A stretch of 33,148 nt of DNA from positions 1-33,148 of the IMG/VR virus record IMGVR_UViG_3300022689_000315, one strand, 5' to 3'. This document shows, piece by piece, positions 4,196-27,408 of the stretch. The notes beneath the pieces are model-generated. The model was given only the letters and a program-made list of their open reading frames with translations, searched no databases and had not been told where the DNA came from. Numbering within the stretch: the first letter of the stretch is position 1; each line of letters begins with the position of its first letter. A program made the translations under genes and the position numbers. Source of the stretch: a virus.

Positions 4196-4252
4196 GGATG
4201 CCGCTGGACCCCGCGCTGGAGTCCAGCGCGGCATCCGGAGTCCGGACTCCGG
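4196..4252. repeat. REP-like nested palindromes
   Basis: GGATGCCGC (4196-4204) pairs with GCGGCATCC (4228-4236). Within it CGCGCTGGA (4212-4220) pairs with TCCAGCGCG (4222-4230). Immediately after comes CCGGAGTCCGGACTCCGG (4235-4252), a perfect 18-base palindrome. Such compact GC-rich nested palindromes between genes are typical of dispersed REP-type elements in alphaproteobacterial chromosomes, which would make this an insertion into the prophage. That origin is inferred from shape only. It sits 36 bases before the methyltransferase start. Confidence 0.55.
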
Positions 4253-4287
4253 CCGGCATCCACCTCATCGACGGAAACCACCCGCCC

Positions 4288-5625
4288 ATGACCCTCGCCT
4301 TCGCCCCCGAGCGGATCGAGACGTGGCCGCTTGCGCGCCTGCAGCCCTACGCGAAGAACGCGAAGGTGCATGGCGCCGACCAGGTCGCGAAGATCGCCGC
4401 CAGCATGGCCGAGTTCGGCTGGACCGTGCCCTGCCTCGTGGCCGAGGACGGCGAGCTGATCGCAGGCCACGGGCGCGTGCTGGCCGCGACGCAGCTCGGG
4501 CTGACCGAGGCGCCGGTGATCGTGCTCGGGCATCTGTCCGAGGCGCAGCGGCGGGCCTATCGCATCGCGGACAACAAGCTGACCGAGCTCGGCAGCTGGG
4601 ACGAGGCGCTGCTCTCGGCCGAGCTGCAGGACCTGCTGGCGGACGACTACGACCTGTCGCTGGTCGGCTTCTCCGACGGCGAACTCGACAAGCTGCTGGC
4701 CTTCGATCCGGACGGGGGCGGTGAAGAAGAGGGCGGCGCCGGAGGCTCCGTGCCTCCGGTGACCATCCCCGAGCCGCCGCGTAACCCGGCCTCGCGGACG
4801 GGCGATCTGTGGATCCTCGGCGACCACCGGCTGCTCTGCGGGGACTCGACCTCGCATGACGACGTACGTCGCCTGATGAACGGCGAGCGCGCGGTGCTGT
4901 TCGCGACGGACCCACCGTACCTCGTCGATTACGACGGCTCGAACCACCCGACCCGCAACAAGGACTGGTCCGCGTCCTACGGCACGACCTGGGACGACAG
5001 TTCGCAGGGTGCGGAGCTCTATGACGGCTTCATCGCTGCGGCCATGGCCGAAGCGATCACTCAGGACGCGGCCTGGTACTGCTGGCACGCCTCGCGCCGG
5101 CAGGCGATGCTCGAGGCCTGCTGGGAGAAGGCGGGCGCCTTCGTCCATCAGCAGATCATCTGGGTGAAAGACCGAGGCGTCCTGACCCGGTCGCACTACC
5201 TCTGGAAACACGAGCCCTGCTTCATGGGCTGGCGCCGTCCGAACCGGCCGCCGAAAGTGGCCGAGCAGACGCTGCCCTCGACCTGGGAGATGCCGTCCTT
5301 CGCCAAGGACGAGCGCCCGGATCACCCGACGCCGAAGCCCCTTGATGCCTTCGGTATCCCGATGCGCCAGCACGTCGTCCGCGGCGGGCTCTGCTACGAG
5401 CCGTTCTCGGGCTCCGGCTCGCAGATCATGGCGGGCGAGGCCAACGGCCGCCGTGTCTTCGCGATGGAGATCAGCCCGGCCTATGTCGACGTCGCCGTCG
5501 AGCGCTGGCAGTCCGAGATCGGCCGCGACGCTATCCTCGACGGCGATGGCAGGACCTTCACGCAAGTGAAGGCCGCGCGGTTAGGCGAGACCCCGGCTGC
5601 GGCTGAGGGGGCCCACGCGGCCTGA
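4288..5625 (+). CDS. ParB-like / DNA adenine methyltransferase fusion
   Basis: A 445-residue phage DNA modification protein. Residues 1-130 are ParB/sulfiredoxin-like, with LQPYAKNAKVHGADQVAKIA and ELIAGHGRVLAATQLG. The rest is a class beta methyltransferase: the catalytic motif DPPY is at 208-211 after VLFAT, a PTPKPL segment lies near 350, and the AdoMet-binding FSGSG is near 373-377, so the catalytic motif precedes the AdoMet motif. DPPY suggests N6-adenine as target. Phages of this group use such enzymes against host restriction. I chose ATG 4288; an in-frame extension upstream runs through the palindrome region and lacks coding character. Confidence 0.85.
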   Translation: MTLAFAPERIETWPLARLQPYAKNAKVHGADQVAKIAASMAEFGWTVPCLVAEDGELIAGHGRVLAATQLGLTEAPVIVLGHLSEAQRRAYRIADNKLTELGSWDEALLSAELQDLLADDYDLSLVGFSDGELDKLLAFDPDGGGEEEGGAGGSVPPVTIPEPPRNPASRTGDLWILGDHRLLCGDSTSHDDVRRLMNGERAVLFATDPPYLVDYDGSNHPTRNKDWSASYGTTWDDSSQGAELYDGFIAAAMAEAITQDAAWYCWHASRRQAMLEACWEKAGAFVHQQIIWVKDRGVLTRSHYLWKHEPCFMGWRRPNRPPKVAEQTLPSTWEMPSFAKDERPDHPTPKPLDAFGIPMRQHVVRGGLCYEPFSGSGSQIMAGEANGRRVFAMEISPAYVDVAVERWQSEIGRDAILDGDGRTFTQVKAARLGETPAAAEGAHAA

Positions 5626-5629
5626 CGAC

Positions 5630-6652
5630 GTGGATGGCGTGGCTCTACCTTCCTCCGGCGTGTCTGCCGGAGCCGGCGACGCGTGCCTGTTCGGCCTCTC
5701 GCTCTGCTCCGGCGCCGGCGGGCTCGACCTCGGGCTGCACCTCGCACTCCCCGGATATCGCACTGTGGGTCACGTCGAGCGGGACGCCTACGCCGCGGCC
5801 ATCCTCATGGCGCGGATGGAAGACGCGGCCCTGGATCCGGCGCCTGTCTGGGACGACGCTGCCACCTTCGACGGCTGCCCGTGGCGCGGCGCGGTGGACA
5901 TCGTCACTGCGGGCTATCCGTGCCAGCCGTTCTCCGTCGCGGGCAAGCGCCGGGGCGCAGACGACCCGCGCCACCTCTGGCCGCATGTCGCCCGGATCGT
6001 CGGCGAGTGCGGACCACCCTTCGTGTTCCTCGAGAACGTCGCCCATCATCTCCGTCTCGGCTTCCCCGAGGTCGCCGGAGGACTGGTCGGCATGGGCTAC
6101 CGCGTTGCGGCAGGCCTCTTCACGGCGGCGGAAGTCGGCGCGCCGCATCGGCGCGAGCGGCTCTTCATCCTCGCCCACCGCGAACGCGACCACCTGGCCG
6201 ACCCCGCGCGCCTGCTCGGGGACGCGGTCGAGCGGCGGGAACCGGACGGAGATGATGCGGCTCTGGCCGACGCCGCTGGCCGGCGACAGCAAGGGAACGC
6301 GGAACCGGACGAGCAGTCGGAGCGAGACGGCGCGCCCGCGCAACGACGGGACCACGCTCTGCGATGCGACGCGGATGTGGATGACGCCGACGGCGCGGGA
6401 TCACAAGGACGGCGCGACGAGCCTTGCGAACACGCCGGTGAACGGGCTGCTTGGCCGCCAGGTCCTGGTGACGCCGACGGCTGGCGGGCGTTCCTGCGAC
6501 ACGCCCCGGACCTTGAACCCGCTGTTCGTCGAGGCGCTGATGGGCTGGCCCACCGGGTGGACCGGCTTCGGCTCTGTGGCAACGGAGTGGTCCCGCTGGT
6601 CGCGGCGCATGCGCTCCGAACTCTTGCAGCTGAACTGCTGGCCGATGGATGA
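5630..6652 (+). CDS. DNA cytosine-C5 methyltransferase
   Basis: A 340-residue enzyme that transfers a methyl group to cytosine C5. All key motifs are visible in order: motif I LSLCSGAGGLDLGL (24-37), motif IV GYPCQPFS with catalytic Cys98, motif VI ENV (135-137), motif VIII PHRRERLF (172-179) and motif X GNGVVP (317-322). The stretch 190-300, where the target-recognition region belongs, is short and rich in Asp, Arg and Ala, including LADP and ALADAAG. The start is a GTG four bases after the previous stop. From 6252 another frame is also open and looks like a real protein (see that entry). Confidence 0.85.
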   Translation: MDGVALPSSGVSAGAGDACLFGLSLCSGAGGLDLGLHLALPGYRTVGHVERDAYAAAILMARMEDAALDPAPVWDDAATFDGCPWRGAVDIVTAGYPCQPFSVAGKRRGADDPRHLWPHVARIVGECGPPFVFLENVAHHLRLGFPEVAGGLVGMGYRVAAGLFTAAEVGAPHRRERLFILAHRERDHLADPARLLGDAVERREPDGDDAALADAAGRRQQGNAEPDEQSERDGAPAQRRDHALRCDADVDDADGAGSQGRRDEPCEHAGERAAWPPGPGDADGWRAFLRHAPDLEPAVRRGADGLAHRVDRLRLCGNGVVPLVAAHALRTLAAELLADG

Positions 6653-6665
6653 GGGTGCGGCGTGA
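6252..6665 (+). CDS. LWPTP-type protein overprinted on the C5 methyltransferase
   Basis: In the frame one base after the methyltransferase frame, two ATGs (6252, 6255) open 137 codons whose product is more protein-like than the overlapping one: LWPTPLAGDSKG, MWMTPTARDHKDGAT, VTPTAGG, then LNPLFVEALMGWPTGWTG and an aromatic tail with SRWSRRMRSELLQL. I recall very similar sequence as the C-terminal part of other phage cytosine methyltransferases. The stop TGA (6663-6665) overlaps the GTG of the next gene as GTGA, the usual coupling pattern here, whereas the methyltransferase stops 10 bases earlier. It may be a separate gene or reached by frameshift. LADA in one frame becomes WPTP in the other, so a shadow effect is not excluded. 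Confidence 0.5.
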   Translation: MMRLWPTPLAGDSKGTRNRTSSRSETARPRNDGTTLCDATRMWMTPTARDHKDGATSLANTPVNGLLGRQVLVTPTAGGRSCDTPRTLNPLFVEALMGWPTGWTGFGSVATEWSRWSRRMRSELLQLNCWPMDEGAA

Positions 6666-7120
6666 AGACTTGGACGATTCACGAGGTTGCGGACGCCTGC
6701 TTGATGACGACTGGCGAGCTAAGCCAGTGGATGTCCCGTGGTCACTACCGGCCCTCCGAGGAGGTCCGACCCGGTCAGCGTCGGCGGTTCGATTGGCGCG
6801 ATCTCGCATGCCTGGCGGTCATCAACGCGCTTCGACCGCACTGTCTGTCGATCAACGCGATGGGTCTGATCGCCGGCGATCTTCGCGAAGAACTCGCCAT
6901 GATGAACCGGATCCCCGAAAGTCCGCGCCTGTTCTTCTTTGCGGCGAACTGGACCAGGGGCAGACACAGACAGACCGTTGGACTGCTTGCGGAAAAGGAC
7001 CTCTGTACGGTTCTGAGGCGCCGTCCCGAGTCGCTTATCGTCGTGGATGTCTCGGGCGTTTACCAAGCAGCCCTCGCGAGGCTACCTTCCGCAGTCGCCG
7101 CGGGAGGCGCTGTGGCATGA
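6662..7120 (+). CDS. small MerR-like helix-turn-helix protein
   Basis: A 152-residue protein starting at a GTG that overlaps the preceding stop. Residues 3-40 (WTIHEVADACLMTTGELSQW and the following RGHYRPSEEVRPGQRRRF) fit a winged helix-turn-helix of the MerR/excisionase type, with an arginine-rich wing. The rest (LFFFAANWTRGRHR, LLAEKDLCTVLRRRPESLIVVDVS) has no domain I can name. It lies between the DNA-modification genes and DUF7220, so a phage regulator is likely. Its stop overlaps the next start as ATGA. Confidence 0.65.
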   Translation: MKTWTIHEVADACLMTTGELSQWMSRGHYRPSEEVRPGQRRRFDWRDLACLAVINALRPHCLSINAMGLIAGDLREELAMMNRIPESPRLFFFAANWTRGRHRQTVGLLAEKDLCTVLRRRPESLIVVDVSGVYQAALARLPSAVAAGGAVA

Positions 7121-26253: not shown

Positions 26254-27408
26254 TTATCCCAAGGATTGCCTGAGGTTCTGAGCTACCGCATCGGCAGCCA
26301 TCCGCACCGGCTCGGCCGCCAGATGGGCGTAGCGCGCCGTGGTCTGGACCTGCGTGTGGCCAAGGAGCTTGCCGATCATCGGCAGGCCCTGACCCGAGGC
26401 GACGGCGGTCGACGCGAAGGTGTGGCGCAGGTCGTGGATGCGGACGTCCTTGACACCAGCGCGGGCGCGCACGCGCTGCCAGAAGGGCTGGAGATCGCTC
26501 AGGCGCTTGCCCGGAAGGGTGCCGAAGATGACCCACGGGTTGCCTTCGATGCGCTGGGCGTCGCGGAACAGGTCGACGGCGGGCTGTCCGAGATGAACGA
26601 CCTTGGCGCCGGACTTGGAATCCGGCAGGCGCAGAACGCGCTCGGCCAGATCGACGTATGCCCATTGCAGCGTCATGATTTCGTTCAACCGACAACCGGT
26701 TAGGATCAGCAGGCGGGCGGCGAGGATGGCCGAAGGCAGTTCGATCCTCTCTGCCTCCATCTCGCGCAGCACCTCACCGATGCGGCGGAGTTCGGCCGCG
26801 CTGAGAAAGCGCTCGCGCTTCTCCTCGGGGTACTTCCGGATGTGCTTTCGCGGATTGGTGCCGTCCGGACGCAGGCCCCACATCTCGGCGAGGCTGAACA
26901 TCTTCGAAACCACTTCGAGGCAGCGGTTCGCCTGATAGGGGATGTGGCGGAGGTCGTGGTGGAACTTCGCCACATCCGCCCGGGTGATGCCCGTGACCGT
27001 GAGCTGGCCGAGCGCGGGCAGGATGAAGCGTTCGAGGTTGCGGCGGTACTCCTTGGCCGTGCTCGCCTTCACGCGGATCGCGATGTGCTCCTTGTCGAAC
27101 CGCTCCGCCAGCTCCTTCACCGTGATCGCCCTGCGCCCCGCGTCCCGCTCGGCGGCGGGGTCTGCGCCATTGCGCGCGGCGGCGACGATGGAGATGGCGC
27201 GGTTGCGCGCCTGCTCGCAGGTCAGCACCGTGCTGGGCCCGAGGCTGATCCGCCGCGACCGGCGTCCGGCGCGATACTGGACCACGTAGCCCTTGCGCCC
27301 GCTCGGCAGCACGCGCAGCCCGAAGCCGGGGATCTCGCTGTCCCAGACGAAGTATTCGGCGGGGCGGGCTTCCGCGGCGTCGACGAGGCGTTTGGTGATC
27401 TTGGGCAT
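26254..27408 (-). CDS. int: tyrosine recombinase (prophage integrase)
   Basis: A 384-residue P4/DUF4102-type integrase. The N-terminal arm-binding domain shows EYFVWDSEIPGFGLRVLPSG, then a SAM-like core-binding domain (ITVKELAERFDKEHIA to KMFSLAEMWGLR). All catalytic residues are present: Arg240 in LTGCRLNEI, Lys265, His325 and Arg328 in IHDLRHTFAS, His351 in LLGHTQVQTTARYAHL, and Tyr360. It would integrate and excise the element at the tRNA-fMet site found at 29253-29297, about 1.8 kb from its start. Confidence 0.9.
   Translation of the reverse strand: MPKITKRLVDAAEARPAEYFVWDSEIPGFGLRVLPSGRKGYVVQYRAGRRSRRISLGPSTVLTCEQARNRAISIVAAARNGADPAAERDAGRRAITVKELAERFDKEHIAIRVKASTAKEYRRNLERFILPALGQLTVTGITRADVAKFHHDLRHIPYQANRCLEVVSKMFSLAEMWGLRPDGTNPRKHIRKYPEEKRERFLSAAELRRIGEVLREMEAERIELPSAILAARLLILTGCRLNEIMTLQWAYVDLAERVLRLPDSKSGAKVVHLGQPAVDLFRDAQRIEGNPWVIFGTLPGKRLSDLQPFWQRVRARAGVKDVRIHDLRHTFASTAVASGQGLPMIGKLLGHTQVQTTARYAHLAAEPVRMAADAVAQNLRQSLG

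Follow-up and report, generated by a model that had tools for sequence, protein, structure and literature searches.

The methyltransferase locus described here is very probably a fully overlapping gene pair that encodes a C5 cytosine methyltransferase of two subunits, like M.EcoHK31I. It lies in a viral stretch of 33,148 nt (IMG/VR record IMGVR_UViG_3300022689_000315; 'the window' below, meaning the whole stretch analysed), in which two long frames, A (alpha) and B (beta), are read from almost the same nucleotides. Alpha would supply the SAM-binding and catalytic domain with motifs I–VIII and X, while beta, translated from its own start 4 nt after that of alpha, would supply the small domain, in which the WPTP repeats form the recognition region and are followed by motif IX. 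The two chains would associate post-translationally, and the assembled enzyme would methylate phage DNA and perhaps host DNA. Alpha residues 189–298 and most of beta before 189 would need only be translatable, because the partner frame holds the functional information there. The features of the locus are as follows.

5630..6652, plus strand: alpha subunit open reading frame (ORF), a putative C5 cytosine methyltransferase with motifs I–VIII and X; 340 aa, GTG start
5634..6665, plus strand: putative beta subunit ORF; 343 aa, ATG start, +1 frame, overlapping alpha almost entirely
5630..5636, plus strand: start-start overlap GTGGATG (ATGCATG in most homologues)
5918..5926, plus strand: frame A motif IV, PCQ, with catalytic Cys98; P97, C98 and Q99 invariant in alignment A1 (49 diverse alpha sequences)
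6032..6040, plus strand: frame A motif VI, ENV; E135 invariant and V137 nearly so in A1
6152..6160, plus strand: frame A motif VIII, RER; R175 and R177 invariant
6194..6523, plus strand: alpha spacer, codons 189–298, open but free in amino-acid sequence
6195..6512, plus strand: beta WPTP-repeat region, candidate target recognition region
6513..6563, plus strand: beta motif IX, LNPLFVEALMGWPTGWT; the most conserved part of beta alignment A2, with both frames constrained
6563..6595, plus strand: frame A motif X, RLRLCGNGVVP; G317 and N318 conserved in at least 90%
6662..6665, plus strand: GTGA, in which the beta stop and the next start codon overlap
6662–7120: next gene, MerR-like (PF13411, E 1.5e-6)

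Frame A carries the features of the PF00145 family, namely motifs I, IV (PCQ), VI (ENV) and VIII and motif X (GNxVxP), and the initial annotation had rightly seen that this frame finishes a C5 methyltransferase with motif X. Alpha residues 23–189 match Pfam PF00145 (E 4e-31), residues 23–332 match phrog_363 (E 1e-62), and a profile of alpha homologues matches M.HhaI and M.HaeIII (E 1e-26 to 1e-38). A recognition region and a motif IX between motifs VIII and X on the same chain are not found in alpha. As the stretch from VIII to X is free in frame A and the motif IX-like sequence is in frame B, alpha alone is, by sequence, not a complete canonical enzyme.

Frame B, which had been described as a WPTP/MGWPTGW-type sequence ending in a GTGA overlap, reads just so: from 6180 to 6665 it gives TTWPTPRAC...RLWPTP...WMTPTARDHKDG...TLNPLFVEALMGWPTGWT, with its stop at 6665, 13 nt past that of alpha, and in 102 homologues the beta stop shares an ATGA or GTGA with the start codon of the gene that follows. 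Beta residues 82–310 match phrog_1008 'DNA methyltransferase' (E 9e-19). The beta profile alone, searched against solved structures, returned nothing up to E 10, and motif IX was therefore assigned from its pattern, its position and single-chain relatives; the segment resembles the canonical motif IX of M.HhaI. In two of these relatives (L284 and L289) a single ORF holds motifs I–VIII, the WPTP region, a motif IX-like segment (LNPDWVECLMGFPIGWT in L284, LSPDWVECLMNYPLGWT in L289) and motif X, with the WPTP region sitting between motifs VIII and IX. In four others (L270, L282, L285 and L286) alpha stops at motif VIII, with WPTP, IX and X carried by a +1 ORF that overlaps it, and gp76/gp75 of mycobacteriophage Wizard007 are likewise split after motif VIII, with the rest on the second chain. 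Because single-chain and split relatives alike place WPTP and IX after VIII, beta corresponds by position to the small domain, and the best interpretation of the second product is that it provides this enzyme with the small domain that alpha lacks, rather than being a second methyltransferase unrelated to it.

Structure prediction is consistent with this assignment. A fused AlphaFold model, in which alpha 1–185 was joined to beta, aligned with M.HhaI 5–286 (Z 19.5, rmsd 2.6, 171 residues, model residues 15–311); the alignment ends at MGWPTGWT, where pLDDT is ~50, and it is for this reason consistent with beta as small domain rather than proof of it. The fused model is confident in the catalytic domain only, the beta part having pLDDT mostly <55, and the VIA-align list is dominated by the catalytic domain. 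Alpha alone, modelled with a shallow alignment, had a mean pLDDT of 42.

Three loci (L199, L272 and L321) have frames A and B seemingly joined or exchanged by indels within the WPTP region; these could be natural variants or sequencing errors. A window-like relative with 56% G+C (L202:448-1974) has an uninterrupted 508-aa beta ORF starting MAWLYLP; its alpha ORF stops right after motif VIII, with motif X in a separate short frame-A ORF, so that this alpha is possibly three-piece or damaged.

The overlap region has a G+C content of 72%, and synonymous shuffles of frame A always left frame B open in the window itself. The openness of frame B there is thus uninformative, being expected by chance, and homologues were needed to decide. 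We scanned viral contigs with each frame separately, and the two scans converged on loci of one kind. Frame B was open, and at +1 to A, in 108/108 viral homologues. Among 111 distinct loci with both ends, B was open and at +1 in all and A was scored open in 109, the other two being apparent extraction failures near the inferred start. An independent set of 80 prophage loci in bacterial genomes, mostly Rhodobacterales, gave A open in 80/80, B open in 79/80 and B at +1 in 80/80. In 19 annotated phage records (34–64% G+C) every C5 methyltransferase gene carries the +1 frame. In the 18 phages whose alpha spans beta (overlap G+C 41–62%), both frames are open over 165–379 codons, with a probability of no stop in synonymous shuffles of 0–0.024 for B given A and 0–0.008 for A given B, making chance openness at lower G+C unlikely. 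Across 376 loci, a set that gives no share of phage C5 methyltransferases without B because most were found through B, B was at +1 in 364, in the same frame in 4 and at +2 in none, and 8 had no alpha N-terminus in the retrieved DNA. The m5C enzymes JCM7686_0772/2655 of Paracoccus aminophilus prophages, considered as characterised homologues, were set aside, as they grouped with proteins of ~700 aa from a different family.

Substitutions between related sequences revealed which frame is under selection where. We classed changes in 85 nearest-neighbour pairs by their effect in both frames, per expected change; since the pairs are not independent, the rates below are effect sizes rather than formal tests. 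Pairwise diversity showed that A third positions vary up to codon 188 and again from codon 312; from codon 189 onward to 311, A first positions (B third positions) vary and A third positions are almost frozen. For codons 189–298, the rate was 0.164 for A-missense/B-silent, 0.032 for A-silent/B-missense and 0.0066 for A-nonsense/B-silent changes. Compared to the A-silent rate of 0.147 in the N-terminal part of alpha, the first of these values means that alpha amino acids at 189–298 change at about the synonymous rate, while B-silent changes that are nonsense in A are depleted ~25-fold relative to those that are missense. Both frames are constrained at codons 299–311 (A-silent/B-missense 0.007; A-missense/B-silent 0.061), and at codons 312–326 A is constrained (A-missense/B-silent 0.004) and B is free (A-silent/B-missense 0.156). 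Selection thus passes from frame A to frame B at codon 188/189 and returns to A at about 311/312. The 80 genome loci replicated the pattern for codons 189–298 (0.155, 0.024 and 0.0087 for the same three classes in the same order), and in Acinetobacter-type phages the middle region repeated it with a weaker contrast (0.35–0.39 vs 0.12–0.15).

Taken together, these rates place the constraint on alpha at codons up to 188 and beyond 311, and that on beta at codons 189–311; outside its constrained part each frame changes in sequence, with nonsense changes still depleted. The dual coding proposed by the initial annotation is thereby supported, frame B being open in homologues and the substitutions at codons 189–298 sparing the third positions of A instead of those of B; we also looked for close homologues in which B is stopped or evolves freely, and neither was the case. 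The accompanying statement that both frames are conserved is correct for codons 299–311; at 189–298 it is B only, with A kept open, and after 312 mainly A.

The same rates bear on the possibility that alpha is complete and active alone and that beta is an independent overprinted protein, e.g. a regulator or an anti-restriction factor. Alpha does have motifs I–VIII and X, and, as the phrog_363 match shows, its similarity to the frame-A proteins of other phages extends over its length. Yet at codons 189–298, the necessary place for a recognition domain, amino acids change freely, canonical motif IX is absent from alpha and present in beta, and the alpha of split relatives ends right after motif VIII, all of which leaves this explanation improbable.

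Where beta begins was judged from several signs. Translation from 5634 to 6665 is most likely, because B-frame constraint sets in at 6194, upstream of the ATG at 6252, because the ATG at +4 from the alpha start is kept (104/105 viral and 80/80 genome homologues, 184/185 together), because the ORF is intact and beta stops are avoided, and because of the beta N-terminus and the stop overlap. Full-length beta is open in 102/104 viral and 78/80 genome homologues (180/184), and interrupted in the other four (L083, L138, L401 and L412). The N-terminal residues M[TA]WLY-P are near invariant; more widely, NTGnATG is found near the alpha start in 257/368 loci, with a beta N-terminus that is mostly M[STA]WL[YF]. 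In alpha codons 3–158, Leu/Val codons before A are NTG in 0/142 cases, compared to 27% before other bases and 80% in the neighbouring gene, and NTA occurs 1/2233 times before A/G vs 111/958 before C/T; only 1 beta stop was seen there vs 108 expected from synonymous shuffles. The avoidance was repeated in 108 other overlap-start loci (0/187 for NTG; 2/1816 for NTA). The overlap had been thought to be the last 414 nt of the gene, from 6252; it takes in the whole gene instead, the beta ATG being at 5634.

Other starts were considered. At the internal ATGATG at 6252, ATG or TTG is present in just 59% of the viral homologues, and frame B is already constrained before this point; TTG 6105 (96% conserved) and ATG 5985 were dropped, as the start-start overlap at 5634 is near invariant. 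In the window, the start pair has no strong Shine-Dalgarno sequence ahead of it. In some other phages, e.g. N15 and Paenibacillus phages, beta starts later, at a position served by a good internal ribosome site. Frame A synonymous variation is unusually low at alpha codons 141–169 (6050–6136), with fourfold sites at codons 141–160 at 0.065 and 0.026 per ten-codon bin vs ~0.3 nearby; together with the kept TTG 6105, this may reflect an extra constraint on beta or an RNA-level element.

A programmed +1 ribosomal frameshift near codon 188, yielding a single polypeptide whose catalytic domain comes from frame A and whose C-terminus comes from frame B, would account for the sharp change of selected frame at codon 188/189; relatives with a single-frame enzyme exist, and L138 keeps the downstream B sequence despite a frame-B stop at codon 179. 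A conserved slippery sequence is absent, however, codons 183–188 varying at first and third positions, and frameshifting needs neither protection of B from stops far upstream of 188 nor a near-invariant ATG at +4. Moreover, motif X would be lost, because it is in frame A. A review of frameshifting yielded a single methyltransferase, an unrelated yeast tRNA enzyme. We regard such a frameshift as unlikely.

That frame B is a mere by-product, either a fossil left by an ancient frameshift or an artefact caused by the high G+C, is most improbable, for although long alternative ORFs are common at 72% G+C and shuffling A never closes B in the window, B is under purifying selection at 189–311, its stops are avoided upstream, and the same nested frame recurs at much lower G+C with a shuffle P <0.01 in most cases. 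The suggestion that the stretch is the product of an ancient frameshift is unsupported in particular because selection acts on both frames in present-day relatives; even so, the split may well have originated in a past change of frame.

The fully overlapping two-subunit enzyme can be put in broader terms, to which we give somewhat better than even chances: a dual-coded enzyme from start to stop, with >1 kb shared, catalysis in one frame and recognition in the other, the partner's stretch serving in each case as a spacer of free sequence, an arrangement that would be old and widespread in tailed phages of actinobacterial, Firmicute, Bacteroidetes, cyanobacterial and proteobacterial hosts, with specificity in the overprinted frame. 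From motif VIII to motif IX it is frame B that is under selection, and this suggests that recognition resides in beta. If so, recognition could be changed without altering the catalytic sequence of alpha, and the locus would offer a direct test of where target recognition lies in split methyltransferases, here in frame B, as against the earlier prediction for M.EcoHK31I. The locus would be a rare case of long same-strand dual-coding genes with both products understood, and its recurrence in hundreds of phage contigs of very different G+C makes it a natural model of information split between frames.

Both frames are annotated in Paenibacillus phage Lily (LILY_62 and LILY_63, the latter labelled 'g62 internal gene'), in Bloom (BLOOM_56/57) and in E. 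coli phage K1H (APL42_gp32/gp33), and a single frame in most phage records examined. Many phage records thus annotate half a methyltransferase, and if the annotated gene is recoded for cloning, the second subunit could be lost. Searches of the literature for overlapping phage methyltransferases gave no account of them, and neither the two frames as parts of one enzyme nor the selection pattern is described in the records or literature found.

With an integrase (26254–27408, minus strand), a primase-like gene (344–2737) and tail genes, the window resembles a temperate phage or a prophage from a Rhodobacterales host. Directly upstream of alpha, at 4198–5625, lies an N6/N4-type methyltransferase with a ParB-like N-terminal part; its stop is a few bases before the alpha start, so that the phage has two different DNA methyltransferases side by side.

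Among known systems, M.HhaI and M.HaeIII have the same motif order as the window, but with all parts in one frame and on one chain. Alpha and beta match separate families of the same name, PHROG 363 and PHROG 1008 'DNA methyltransferase', respectively. In M.AquI, motifs IX and X are both on the small subunit (PMC3404938). The window is akin to M.AquI in that two chains would form one enzyme, and an AquI-like layout is seen in L270, L282, L285, L286 and Wizard007; unlike in M.AquI, motif X stays in alpha (frame A), which sets the window apart from the AquI type. To our knowledge, the arrangement proposed here is biochemically known from a single bacterial enzyme only, M.EcoHK31I. Its beta subunit has 176 aa and, as Lee, Kam and Shaw reportedly found in 1995, is encoded within the alpha gene in a different frame; the related M.EaeI is also a two-polypeptide C5 methyltransferase. 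In the window, too, the small subunit would come from another frame of the same DNA; unlike M.EcoHK31I beta, however, the window beta (343 aa, start at +4 nt) spans the whole alpha gene. The larger subunit of M.EcoHK31I contains motifs I–VIII and X and the smaller one motif IX (PMC3404938). Compared by description, the window shows the same division of motifs, I–VIII and X on the large chain and IX on the small one. The recognition domain was predicted in the large subunit of M.EcoHK31I, whereas in the window it is frame B that is under selection downstream of motif VIII. M.EcoHK31I has the specificity YGGCCR. The window system is phage-borne, with no nuclease identified alongside it.
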